Assembly: GCA_029225065.1 (NCBI GenBank)
Contig: JAQXVT010000022.1
Span: forward strand, 1-55,085
Reading direction: 5' to 3'
Source of the DNA: Lachnospiraceae bacterium
GTDB taxonomy: Bacteria; Bacillota; Clostridia; Lachnospirales; Lachnospiraceae
DNA: 55,085 nt
Shown: in pieces, positions 16,084 through 26,978 of the stretch
How the letters are laid out: every line of letters begins with the position of its first letter
Numbering within the stretch: the stretch's first letter is position 1
Program-made: the position numbers and the translations under genes
Notes under the pieces: model-generated
Told to the model about the DNA's origin: nothing
Seen by the model: only the letters and a program-made list of their open reading frames with translations
Database searches by the model: none

Positions 16084-16136
16084 GAATGGTGCACCTCCTT
16101 ATAGATTTGAGTGTACCGCCGTATAAACAGGAATAT

Positions 16137-16251
16137 CAAAAAACCCCTCTGCGCACAGAGGGGTAGTCAAATTCTTCCTTAGAATCCTATACTCCTCGGC
16201 AGGCGTTTTCTCCTTATGCCTTGCGGCACCTGCTGTCTTCGGCAGTCATCG
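16137..16251 (-). ncRNA. L10 leader (ribosomal protein L10 autoregulatory RNA)
   Basis: Downstream of the rplJ promoter the minus strand carries the known L10-leader hallmarks: ACTGCCGAAGACAGCAGGTG, then GCCTGCCGAGG. An intrinsic attenuator follows, CCCCTCTG-TGCG-CAGAGGGG plus six T (16163-16138). The layout matches the L10 leader family of Firmicutes, where L10-L12 binding controls read-through into rplJL. The match is by eye. Confidence 0.85.
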
Positions 16252-16257
16252 TTTAAC

Positions 16258-16286
16258 AGAATAACATATCAGATTAAATATGTCAA
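16258..16286 (-). promoter_or_regulatory. rplJL promoter
   Basis: TTGACA, 17 bp, TATTCT on the minus strand, ending just before the L10 leader. Confidence 0.85.
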
Positions 16287-23800: not shown

Positions 23801-23995
23801 CTAATATTCGTCTTTTTCACTTCCGTACGAGTCATGACAGTCTTCTTCATACTCGGACTGCTCGTTTCTCGCACTGCGTGCTTTCGTATTTTCCGCATTT
23901 TTGTATGCAGCCTTATTTTCATACTGCATTCCGGATACATCTTCTCTCTTGGACTTTGCATTTGATGCCTTTGAATTCGTCGTATTTTTTGCCAT
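23801..23995 (-). CDS. Small hydrophilic protein of unknown function
   Basis: A 64-aa protein starting MAKNTTNSKASNAKSKRED and ending in an acidic DCHDSYGSEKDEY tail. It has no hydrophobic segment and is rich in N, S, A, K and E, so it is probably disordered. I do not recognise the family. The start is ATG at 23995, set by AGGAGG eight bases upstream; the frame is open 12 codons further but without a site. Upstream lies a sequence resembling a forespore sigma-F/sigma-G promoter, which would suggest a spore-associated protein. Its composition is reminiscent of small acid-soluble spore proteins, but no SASP signature motif is present. Confidence 0.7.
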   Translation of the reverse strand: MAKNTTNSKASNAKSKREDVSGMQYENKAAYKNAENTKARSARNEQSEYEEDCHDSYGSEKDEY

Positions 23996-24084
23996 TTTCA
24001 CAGCCTCCTGCAGATTATTGCACTGCCGCACAGACAGCGCCGCAGATACCGGAAACCCTGCATTTCAACGGCTTCTGCATTCTC

Positions 24085-24113
24085 TAGTATGCCGATAAAA
24101 TTATAAAATATGT
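24085..24113 (-). promoter_or_regulatory. Possible sigma-F/sigma-G-type promoter
   Basis: Minus strand ACATA, 17 bp, CATACTA. The -10 matches the sigma-G consensus CATnnTA and the -35 matches G[C/A]ATA in four of five positions. It lies about 85 bp upstream of the small protein gene and next to the divergent promoter of the candidate sRNA. Confidence 0.3.
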
Positions 24114-24114
24114 A

Positions 24115-24143
24115 TTGCAATTTTCTGGAAACTGTATTATAAT
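24115..24143 (+). promoter_or_regulatory. Promoter of candidate sRNA
   Basis: TTGCAA, 17 bp, TATAAT on the plus strand. No ORF follows before a terminator 100 bp downstream. Confidence 0.7.
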
Positions 24144-24149
24144 TTGACT

Positions 24150-24254
24150 TGTAAAAAACTTACCCTTCAAAACATTTTTTACAAACCCCTTATTAATTAT
24201 TTATACTCCCCTCGAAGCGGTCGACAGCTCCCCTGTCGATCGCTTCATTTTTTA
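24150..24254 (+). ncRNA. Candidate C-rich small regulatory RNA
   Basis: A complete transcription unit of about 105 nt. It opens right after a sigma-A promoter with an 8-bp hairpin, GTAAAAAA (24151-24158) with TTTTTTAC (24175-24182), whose loop contains ACCCTTC. A single-stranded stretch with CCCCTT (24186-24191) and TCCCCTC (24207-24213) follows. It ends in a 14-bp terminator stem, 24214-24227 with 24233-24246, loop CTCCC, then ATTTTTTA. No start codon with a ribosome-binding site is present. C-rich loops and tails complementary to Shine-Dalgarno sequences are the hallmark of RsaE/RoxS-like sRNAs; homology to any named family is not shown here. Confidence 0.6.
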
Positions 24255-24269
24255 CTTTGTAATTTCTCA

Positions 24270-24311
24270 GAATAAAAAAGACAGCAGGATGATTGTCTCC
24301 GGCTGTCTTTT
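24270..24311 (-). terminator. Terminator of the beta-galactoside operon
   Basis: Minus strand AAAAGACAGC (24311-24302) pairs with GCTGTCTTTT (24285-24276) and runs into TTATT, about 80 bp after the GH35 stop codon. Confidence 0.8.
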
Positions 24312-24392
24312 CTGTCTTATCTACCAGGCGAATAAATGCAAATCCGCCGCCTGTCATTTTCCAATATTCACAGAGCGTAGATCTCTCCAGAT

Positions 24393-26978
24393 TTAGTTCA
24401 CTCCGCTCTTATATCGCTTCACTGTGATACGTTCTACCTTTGCATCCTCCCCGATAGCCTGACACCATATCTTGACTGGTACATTTTGTAGCCATTCACC
24501 AAGTACCAATGCCGTATCCACCGTACCGCCGCCAACCACCGGTGTGTCTTTCTCGGAAAAATAGATTCTTCCCATCACATGGTTCCCTGCATAAACAGTA
24601 AATTTCACATTTTTTCCAGTAAAAAACAACTTCAGATCCTCACCAGCGGCCGCATCTGCTTTCACCTCAAGCATTTTATTTTCGCCCTCTGAAAGCACAA
24701 GCGGAAGACGCGTTCCGGTTTTCTCTCCCCGTTTTGGAAGCACTGTTCCATACGAACACTTCTGTATTTTCCTTCCAGCAAAAAGTGTGACATTCCCCAT
24801 CTCATCTGTATAGTATCTCCTATACACATACAGTGTAATCTCCAACTCACCTTGCCCCGCATAGGCGGAAAGATCCACATATGGATCATCCTTTACTACA
24901 CTGGCTGCCTTCTGATTGTTGACATATACTGTGATCATACATTCTGCCTTTTCAAAATGAAGAAACAGCCCGTCCTCTCCCTCCGGTGAACAGATCGTGC
25001 GATTAATCAGCGTCACCAGCGGCGAAACAGCACGGTTGTAACCGTCTGCATTCATGATGGCGTTGTATGGCGAATGGCGAAAATAGCAGGTCTGCCGCGG
25101 CATTTCATCCGTTTCATATCCGCGCCAGTCATTCGTCAGATCTTCTGTGCGAGTGATCTGCAGTAACGTCTCTATTCCTTTTAAAGAACCCATGCGAAGG
25201 CTTTTTACACGGATATCATCAAAATTGGCGTGTCCCCAGATCTCCGTCATTATCTGAAGATGTCCTGCTTCAAAATTTCGGACTGCTGTGCTACAGTTCG
25301 CATAAAAAATCTCACTTTTTTCTTTCTGGGTTATCGTGACAATATCCGCAAGACCAGACAAAAGGTATGCTCCCTTTTCCGGAAGCTCTGTCTCATATCT
25401 TCCGATGCCGCGATACTGTCCAAAATACTCCATCGGAGCGATCTGCCCCTTCTCATGTTTTTCTGTTTCCAGTTTACAGTCATAAACGGAAGTCCGCACA
25501 CCAGGTACTATTTCTTCCTGCTCTCCTGGCAGCACAGCAAGCGGTGGAAGGAACGGCAGGCCGTGCTCAGACACATAATCATAACGACCAAAGCAAAACA
25601 GCAGACGACCTTTCTGCACTTTTCGTCCGTTTTCCGGTTCTCCGATACAGATCGTATCACTCACTCCATTTTCCTCAACCACAAGAACTGCATTACCGTT
25701 TCCGTAAAGCCATATGACAGTGTTCCCATCTTCCTTGTAAACAGAAGCCAGCTCATAATTTGAAAAACGAATCTTCGCTGTCTCCGTAATTTTTACATTC
25801 ACCGGCAGCAGCTTCGTCTCACAGCGGTCCATACAGAGTTCATATGTCTCACCGTCTAATAAAAGTCCCACTGTCTGCTTTTCTCCGAGATTCGATACAT
25901 CGAGCAGACTGCCCAGATCAGTCTTTAGTTCCGGCACAACCTCATTGACACACGCACCGAAAATCACGGCGTTGCTTTTCTCCGGCTTTCCAGCTCCGAT
26001 CGCTGTTCCAAATGTATACAACAAACCTGCAAACAGTCTTGCCTTTAAAATTGCCTCATCATAATTTCCAGCCGAACCGATCATAGACTTAAAATCATAA
26101 TCCGTCGCCATGATCGCTACCGGCTTATCCTTCGGTCCCCAGTTCGTAATTCCGGTATAAAAATCCATTGTCGTTCCGGATGTCTGATTGTACGGTCCAA
26201 GCAGCTTCGCTCCGCACGCTAAAAGCCGCTTCAGGAAATCATGCTCCCGGTTTGTCTCCGTAATCATAAACGGCATCCTGCGAAGTGCAACGGCCTCATT
26301 TAAATGCAGTGCTCTCTGCTCCAGTCCTTTAAAATCTCCTGATGAATAAACATTAAATGCAGAGTATAATCCCTCCGTAAGGCCTCCACTTTTTACAATA
26401 TCATCCTGCCCGCAGCAGTAAAACAGTGGAATTTCCATTCCGAAAGACTCTGCCATTTTTTTGAGCTTTCCCATATATGTAACCGGGCTTTTGCAGTCAT
26501 AAAAGTCCAGTTCGTTTTCAATCTGCATGCAGATAATACTGCCCTGCTTTGTGATCTGATATCGATCAAGAATTGGCAGAATATGGGAATACCAGGTATA
26601 CATTGCCTTCAAAAATGTCGGTTCATCCTGTCTCACTGGAATTCCATCCACGTAAAGCCATGACGGAATCCCGCCACCATCCCATTCTGAGCAGATGTAT
26701 GGACCCGGTCTTGCAATCACGAACAGGTCATTTTCTTTTGCAAGCTTTAAAAAACGCTCCACATCACGATTATCCTCAAACGTCCACTTTCCTGGTGATA
26801 TCTCATGGTAATTCCACGGAAAATAAACATCGATTGCATTATACCCAGCCGCTTTTAAAAGTTTCATTCTCTGTTCCCAGCGCTCATTCGGAATCCGGAA
26901 ATAAAATAAGGAAGATGCCAGAATCACCCGACAGCTCCCATTGATCCAGATTCCATTTTCATTCAATTCTATCTTCAT
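24393..26978 (-). CDS. GH35 beta-galactosidase
   Basis: An 861-aa glycoside hydrolase family 35 enzyme, predicted to release terminal beta-linked galactose. The TIM barrel (about 1-320) shows WNYHEISPGKWTFE, RPGPYICSEWDGGGIPSWL, QIENE (putative acid/base Glu156) and MITETNREH (putative nucleophile Glu241). Beta-sandwich domains with jelly-roll character fill the rest. There is no signal peptide, so it should act in the cytoplasm on imported oligosaccharide. The start follows GGAGGTATTT. Last gene of the operon: DUF5597 enzyme, two permeases, binding protein, GH35. Confidence 0.88.
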   Translation of the reverse strand: MKIELNENGIWINGSCRVILASSLFYFRIPNERWEQRMKLLKAAGYNAIDVYFPWNYHEISPGKWTFEDNRDVERFLKLAKENDLFVIARPGPYICSEWDGGGIPSWLYVDGIPVRQDEPTFLKAMYTWYSHILPILDRYQITKQGSIICMQIENELDFYDCKSPVTYMGKLKKMAESFGMEIPLFYCCGQDDIVKSGGLTEGLYSAFNVYSSGDFKGLEQRALHLNEAVALRRMPFMITETNREHDFLKRLLACGAKLLGPYNQTSGTTMDFYTGITNWGPKDKPVAIMATDYDFKSMIGSAGNYDEAILKARLFAGLLYTFGTAIGAGKPEKSNAVIFGACVNEVVPELKTDLGSLLDVSNLGEKQTVGLLLDGETYELCMDRCETKLLPVNVKITETAKIRFSNYELASVYKEDGNTVIWLYGNGNAVLVVEENGVSDTICIGEPENGRKVQKGRLLFCFGRYDYVSEHGLPFLPPLAVLPGEQEEIVPGVRTSVYDCKLETEKHEKGQIAPMEYFGQYRGIGRYETELPEKGAYLLSGLADIVTITQKEKSEIFYANCSTAVRNFEAGHLQIMTEIWGHANFDDIRVKSLRMGSLKGIETLLQITRTEDLTNDWRGYETDEMPRQTCYFRHSPYNAIMNADGYNRAVSPLVTLINRTICSPEGEDGLFLHFEKAECMITVYVNNQKAASVVKDDPYVDLSAYAGQGELEITLYVYRRYYTDEMGNVTLFAGRKIQKCSYGTVLPKRGEKTGTRLPLVLSEGENKMLEVKADAAAGEDLKLFFTGKNVKFTVYAGNHVMGRIYFSEKDTPVVGGGTVDTALVLGEWLQNVPVKIWCQAIGEDAKVERITVKRYKSGVN

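Follow-up and report, generated by a model that had tools for sequence, protein, structure and literature searches.

A conserved promoter-to-terminator unit of Lachnospiraceae predicted to encode a C-rich small RNA

The DNA considered here, referred to throughout as the window, is a stretch of 55,085 nucleotides from a Lachnospiraceae bacterium (assembly GCA_029225065.1, contig JAQXVT010000022.1, forward strand). Between two genes of the minus strand it holds an intergenic unit that an earlier note, made from the sequence alone, had singled out as a candidate C-rich sRNA with its own promoter and terminator. The features of the locus are as follows.

23801..23995, minus strand: small Asn/Ser-rich ORF, upstream and divergent (from the ORF list; context only)
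24115..24120, plus strand: -35 element TTGCAA (from the sequence; TTGC precedes TATAAT in 30/30 genus loci)
24138..24143, plus strand: -10 element TATAAT (from the sequence; kept in 30/30 genus loci)
24150..24183, plus strand: 5' hairpin in which 24150-24158 pairs with 24175-24183, ACCCTTC in the loop (computed fold)
24151..24253, plus strand: predicted sRNA of about 103 nt, +1 at G24151 (conserved G; matched at 24151-24257 by covariance model R1, not independently, as the window itself is in the R1 training set)
24186..24213, plus strand: single-stranded core CCCCTTATTAATTATTTATACTCCCCTC (exact in 28/30 genus loci, 27 nt of it in 30/30)
24195..24211, plus strand: inner 17-mer of the core (at most one mismatch in 114/250 family genomes)
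24214..24246, plus strand: terminator hairpin of 14 pairs with loop CTCCC (fold and pair conservation)
24248..24253, plus strand: T6 tract (from the sequence; weaker in relatives)
24393..26978, minus strand: GH35 gene, downstream and convergent (domain match; context only)

The small Asn/Ser-rich ORF, queried as 23801-23992, has no Pfam match, and similar small ORFs adjoin the RNA in other genera. Farther upstream on the minus strand are genes for a rhodanese, a metallophosphoesterase and an RlmL-like methyltransferase. Elsewhere in the window, a ribosomal protein L10 leader (RF00557, 73.7 bits) is found at 16129-16260 on the minus strand.

The signals that the earlier note had described are largely as it gave them. 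The sigma-A-type promoter is present at 24115-24143, with a 17 nt spacer between TTGCAA and TATAAT, and the 14-bp terminator is followed by its T-tract. The distance of 100 nt that was placed between promoter and terminator is right when measured from the -10 element to the end of the terminator and wrong when measured from +1, from where the terminator starts at about 63 nt and ends at about 96 nt. No plausible ORF lies within the unit, the listed TTG ORF (24144-24275) being interrupted by indels in relatives. The computed fold of the window RNA has a minimum free energy of -27.7, against -6.8 +/- 2.1 for 200 dinucleotide shuffles (z -10), and it contains the 5' hairpin with ACCCTTC in its loop and the C-rich terminator loop, as claimed. 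Between the two hairpins runs an unpaired C- and AU-rich strand of about 30 nt, in which both C-runs of the core are single-stranded, again as the earlier note had it. By its sequence signals the unit thus has the free-standing form, with its own promoter and terminator, of the C-rich trans-acting sRNA class, and its fold has the C-rich loops and single strands that are a trait of the RsaE/RoxS type.

Within the promoter spacer, the segment 24120-24134 (TGGAAAC) is largely kept within the genus and not beyond it, and may be a site for a genus-specific regulator. The spacer also holds a CodY-like box, AATTTTCTGGAAACT; by eye it is absent outside the genus, and the candidate was dropped.

A search with 151 nt of the locus found the unit in 31 of 35 congeners as well as in its own genome, some copies being truncated at contig ends, together with bare exact matches of 28 and 30 nt in two genomes of the order that belong to other families; its own genome gave no second match. 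Thirty genus loci were oriented and aligned. TATAAT followed by 7 nt and a G (24151 in the window) occurs in all 30, as does every base of the 28-nt core except the first. ACCCTTC of the 5' loop is kept in 29/30, and so is GCTCCCC of the terminator loop, where the exception is a locus cut short. Three truncated loci (L019, L020, L022) were excluded before alignment A1. Among 27 full-length sequences in an alignment made without reference to structure, all 14 pairs of the terminator stem are kept, 9/14 are compensated and none is broken. Helix 1 shows compensatory change at 10/10 pairs in alignment A2, which was fitted to the model. Across 47 diverse sequences placed on the model, 24/24 pairs have a compensatory change, 97.8% of cells are paired and covariation scores 0.776, dropping to 0.098-0.124 when partners are slid by 1 to 3 columns; the fitting of this alignment to the model structure flatters these figures. 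Several contigs end in or near the unit (L015, L018-L020, L022, L029, and C116 of G021 and C121 of G028), as though assembly were interrupted by the hairpin or by a repeat.

Beyond the genus, the covariance model R1 (E<=0.01) recovers the RNA in 84/392 genomes of the order, representing 43/173 genera; 65 of these genomes belong to the family of the window and 19 to three other families. A pattern search with the 17-nt core, allowing one mismatch, finds it in 114/250 family genomes and 113/249 genera; the reversed pattern, run as a control, hits 10 genomes. The match is exact in 106/250, and eight genomes have a one-mismatch copy only, one of them a chance match. Twenty 17-mer matches, picked by hand (13 exact, 7 with one mismatch, 3 from one genome), were fetched; 19 fit the RNA model, the exception being a one-mismatch match inside an ORF. 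The exact 27-nt core occurs in at least 119 sequence stretches. Among the matches listed, record titles name Lachnospiraceae, Roseburia, Lachnoclostridium phytofermentans, Faecalicatena, Anaerostipes, Mediterraneibacter and Dorea, as well as Vallitalea, Vallitaleaceae and Petrocella, or merely 'Clostridia', 'Eubacteriales' or 'bacterium'. Taken together, the searches place the unit in close to half of the family's sampled genera and in three further families of the order.

No convincing match was obtained outside the order in samples of the phylum and the class (299 and 291 genomes). The phylum-wide pattern, allowing two mismatches, hit 2/299 genomes, the genome of the window itself and G650, which has no model match. 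The class-wide pattern, allowing one mismatch, hit 4/291, namely the same genome, one other of the family, G789 and G823. The core matches in G789 and G823 lie inside ORFs, have no model match and were rejected.

After removal of L082, L083, L086, duplicates and loci with short flanks, 197 unique loci were kept for counting features and 151 for the orientation of flanking genes. Counted without a shuffled control, the 3' hairpin (<=-10 kcal/mol) folds in 197/197 loci and the 5' hairpin (<=-5 kcal/mol) in 192/197, and the C-runs are unequally kept: the first core run is found in 194/197, that of the terminator loop in 150/197 and that of the 5' region in 94/197. Examples from Mediterraneibacter and Dorea have just an 8-bp stem as their 5' hairpin, and the C-rich loop is absent. 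The AU-rich linker of the core is about as fixed as the two C-runs that it joins, and in divergent copies the first C-run is lost or the linker is altered (L326, L331). Comparison of the sequences indicates that the two core C-runs are the constant part of the RNA, the linker between them being about equally fixed. Outside the genus this constancy is biased upwards, since the model and pattern matches were selected for the core; fairer measures are the one-mismatch family search and the genus set, which was obtained with a 151-nt query. The tail is more variable, with at least four T in the first eight bases after the terminator in 132/197 loci and a weak T-tract in many relatives. Its commonest form is ACTTT (43/197 loci) instead of a plain T-run, and the AC recurs.

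Conservation of the C-runs and of stem pairing had been set beforehand as the test of the proposal, and it holds for the core runs and for both stems. That the window contains a promoter-to-terminator unit exceeding chance is confirmed, in so far as sequence comparison can do so, because of this conservation and covariation. The same comparative evidence makes it almost certain that the unit is a real structured RNA gene.

As to what this RNA does, the likeliest reading, which we judge somewhat probable, is that it represents a new family of C-rich, Hfq-independent trans-acting sRNAs, likely to pair with G-rich ribosome-binding sites. The comparative steps that point this way are the promoter and terminator signals, the compensated hairpins, the fixed and apparently unpaired core and the mostly orphan setting of the predicted gene, together with its single match in its own genome, the lack of an Hfq match in RNA-positive genomes of the family and the copies on phage contigs. 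Transcription from the conserved promoter would release a free small RNA, stabilised by the 5' hairpin that starts at +1, which would act in trans without Hfq. Its CCCCUU and CUCCCC runs would pair with selected Shine-Dalgarno sites of the AGGGG or GGGGAG type, and the outcome would be a block of translation or decay of the mRNA. Against such a role stand the same-strand downstream ORFs in 40/151 loci and the weak T-tract in many relatives. The AU-rich linker, being as fixed as the C-runs, is also more than seed pairing to Shine-Dalgarno sequences requires.

Possible targets were sought in 984,521 of the 3,177,703 bases (about 31%) of the genome of the window, covering 923 genes called with a home-made ORF caller. 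The earlier note had all four C-runs complementary to Shine-Dalgarno sequences, which is too general a statement: GGGG lies upstream of 55/923 starts and AGGAGG upstream of 154/923. Duplexes of the core with the start region at <=-12 kcal/mol are predicted for 31% of the 923 genes, fewer than for 20 mononucleotide-shuffled cores (44 +/- 8%). Three candidate pairings were followed: an RsuA-like gene matches the 5' loop over 9 nt, an Hpt gene gives a duplex of -24.4 kcal/mol, and a transporter gene of the NSS type offers 8 nt. Pairing at the same site is not conserved in 29, 16 and 13 relatives, respectively (loci inspected: 30 for the RsuA-like gene, 17/28 for Hpt and 14/25 for NSS). Different short complements occur in a few relatives, such as one of 9 nt in L287 and one of -20.9 kcal/mol in L342, and two relatives of the NSS-type transporter gene pair slightly better than the gene of the window's own genome, elsewhere in the sequence. 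A Crp-like candidate was found in 9/36 genus genomes, mostly as distant relatives. The computed target search with the C-runs that the earlier note had advised gave mRNA targeting no support, with no pairing above that of shuffled cores and none of the three candidates conserved, so that pairing with translation starts is something we infer from the C-runs and the RoxS precedent.

The main rival, distinctly less probable in our estimation and still to be reckoned with, is an RNA that binds a protein, as a sponge, a scaffold or a chaperone guide, with pairing only secondary. The fixed 27-nt strand held open between the hairpins would then be a site for, for example, the KhpA/KhpB pair of KH-domain proteins or a cold-shock protein. 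Several of the results above suit such a role: the linker is as fixed as the C-runs, the sequences of the hairpins change freely and that of the strand between them does not, and neither an excess of pairing nor a conserved target was found. The recurrence of the C-runs in the terminator loop and the 5' loop, at the frequencies given above, suits a pairing RNA instead.

The distribution of Hfq bears on both readings. Hfq scores over the cut-off in 107/392 genomes of the order, none of them in the family of the window, where the lone match (G412, not RNA-positive) is below the cut-off; the apparent absence of Hfq extends across this family, and many genomes in other families of the order have a match. 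All 65 RNA-positive genomes of the family, that of the window included, are without an Hfq match, and 18/19 RNA-positive genomes of the three other families have one, counts for which the Hfq and RNA searches, made as separate draws of 392 genomes, are taken as the same set from their shared handles. In the loci looked at, lineages with and without an Hfq match have an identical core, and Hfq therefore does not account for its constancy, a point that also favours the protein-binding RNA. The genome of the window has two matches over the cut-off to the KhpA/B family, and we infer that these proteins are possible partners or helpers of the RNA.

Much less likely is a cis element, that is, a leader, attenuator or antisense of an adjoining gene. 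In 40/151 loci the first ORF of 100 aa or more on the downstream side is on the same strand, and one copy on a viral contig (L387:698-814) lies just before a portal gene (phrog_64). The downstream ORF is convergent in 107/151 loci and lacking in 4/151, clustering of the flanking proteins gives 211 clusters, 180 of them with a single member (from a simple and noisy ORF caller), and the 3' hairpin folds in every locus counted, all of which tells against a cis role. Recurrent neighbours, noted by eye, are RlmL-like, rhodanese-like and DUF1700-like proteins; they reflect a chromosome order held in common, not a cis target. From its surroundings the unit is predicted to be mostly an orphan, giving a free RNA rather than a leader.

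It is a shade less likely still that the unit is an element acting at the level of DNA, a protein-binding site or spreading repeat that merely resembles an RNA gene. Several copies are indeed present in some genomes: G1126 carries four exact cores, G318, G1123 and G1072 carry two (those of G318 about 1.8 kb apart), and G225, G104 and G166 give three model matches apiece. A single exact core per genome is the rule (102/106 exact-core family genomes), and the compensatory changes in both stems and the fixed promoter position and +1 within the genus are those of an RNA gene.

The earlier note had called the RNA RsaE/RoxS- or FsrA-like, and in its C-rich, single-stranded design this stands. Membership of a known RNA family, whether RsaE/RoxS, FsrA or another in Rfam, is very improbable. 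Rfam gives no family at gathering, and the seven weak matches obtained up to E=10 (24030-24400) include neither RsaE/RoxS (RF01820) nor FsrA, which also has an Rfam model. RoxS/RsaE, known from Bacillus and Staphylococcus, is about 100 nt long, and its promoter is controlled by ResDE and Rex-type redox regulators, to be compared with the promoter of the unit, which is conserved in its genus. As far as the cited passages of PMC4409812 go, RoxS carries C-runs in a loop and in a single strand, a layout that resembles that of the window RNA and is the point in favour of kinship. Each is an orphan sRNA, a predicted one in the case of the window, that has a stem-loop at its 5' end and C-rich regions in several places, and the cited parts of PMC4409812 and PMC8216469 describe pairing of RoxS with Shine-Dalgarno sites and an effect on ppnKB that is little changed without Hfq. 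Unlike the window RNA, RoxS/RsaE has a 10-nt duplication, CCCCUUUGUU (PMC4409812, in the part cited), that is lacking from 24151-24253. The window RNA has instead one fixed core, CCCUUAUUAAUUAUUUAUACUCCCCUC, and within the genome samples searched it is seen in one order only.

FsrA, of the Fur regulon of Bacillus, shares C-rich predicted single strands with the window RNA (cited passages of PMC4409812 and PMC8216469), and there is neither an Rfam match nor a sequence relation seen between the two. RsaA of Staphylococcus aureus is likewise a C-rich sRNA, with pairing to a Shine-Dalgarno region (PMC3961350, in the part cited), and is set apart here by the Rfam result. The ModT or raiA motif RNA resembles the unit in being a very widely conserved noncoding RNA of Bacillota and, going by the cited part of PMC11706538, is a structured RNA, whereas the window unit consists of two simple hairpins and an unpaired core, with no Rfam match. 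What the earlier note proposed at its most general, an orphan, structured and conserved unit with C-rich single-stranded regions and without a match in Rfam, is borne out.

Least likely of all is a short mRNA for a tiny peptide, for although one reading frame of the core is, by eye, open for about 10 codons, the frame would be shifted in some genera by indels ahead of the core and a single inserted base within it, and by eye no start codon has a ribosome-binding site.

Searches of the open-licence literature on Lachnospiraceae, Roseburia, phytofermentans, Hfq loss and clostridial sRNAs, and for 25 nt of the core as text, yielded no description of the RNA, and we provisionally regard it as new; the same searches yielded no characterised trans-acting sRNA of Lachnospiraceae. 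A study of transcription start sites in C. phytofermentans does present candidate noncoding transcripts, from cDNA libraries with a 200-bp size threshold (PMC5171806, in the part cited).

Copies of the RNA are also likely to be real in the phage DNA of several contigs, judging from their sequence. The exact 21-nt core occurs in four viral contigs and the 17-nt core in 13, these four included; six of the 13 are model-positive (E <0.001), and the other seven have no model match at the core and were taken as chance. Apart from the copy before the portal gene, the RNA lies downstream of ORFs resembling late regulators in L389:629-745, L390:39-130 and L394:492-577 (a likeness resting on phrog_36 in L389 and judged by eye in L390 and L394). 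The L389 copy begins within the end of a predicted tRNA-Thr, that of L394 is directly behind a tRNA-like gene, and the one at L391:202-318 follows an ORF that is endolysin-like by eye. L388 resembles a host locus adjoining phage portal and terminase genes. The 151-nt unit has no match among plasmids and annotated phages, where partial matches to 35 nt of the core (41 and 1 records, E>=1) were not counted.

These copies lend themselves to a bolder proposal, which we hold only tentatively and think rather doubtful: a riboregulator of the whole order that outlasted Hfq and was taken over by phages, its core acting as a universal 'plug', made of RNA, in a machine or regulon of the host. If this were so, the 27-nt core would be kept letter for letter in Lachnospiraceae and its sister families while the surroundings change, and the phage copies, which adjoin late-regulator, tRNA, packaging or lysis genes, would let the phage work the same lever while it infects.

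In animal guts, Lachnospiraceae rank among the dominant bacteria. For this family, the unit offers one testable RNA family across cultured species (Roseburia inulinivorans, Lachnoclostridium phytofermentans, Faecalicatena, Anaerostipes), and it poses the question of how an RNA of the pairing type keeps its core unchanged in a family showing no Hfq. The copies on phage contigs suggest that the RNA may matter in infection, and within the bacteria it is likely to be a shared switch for gene activity.
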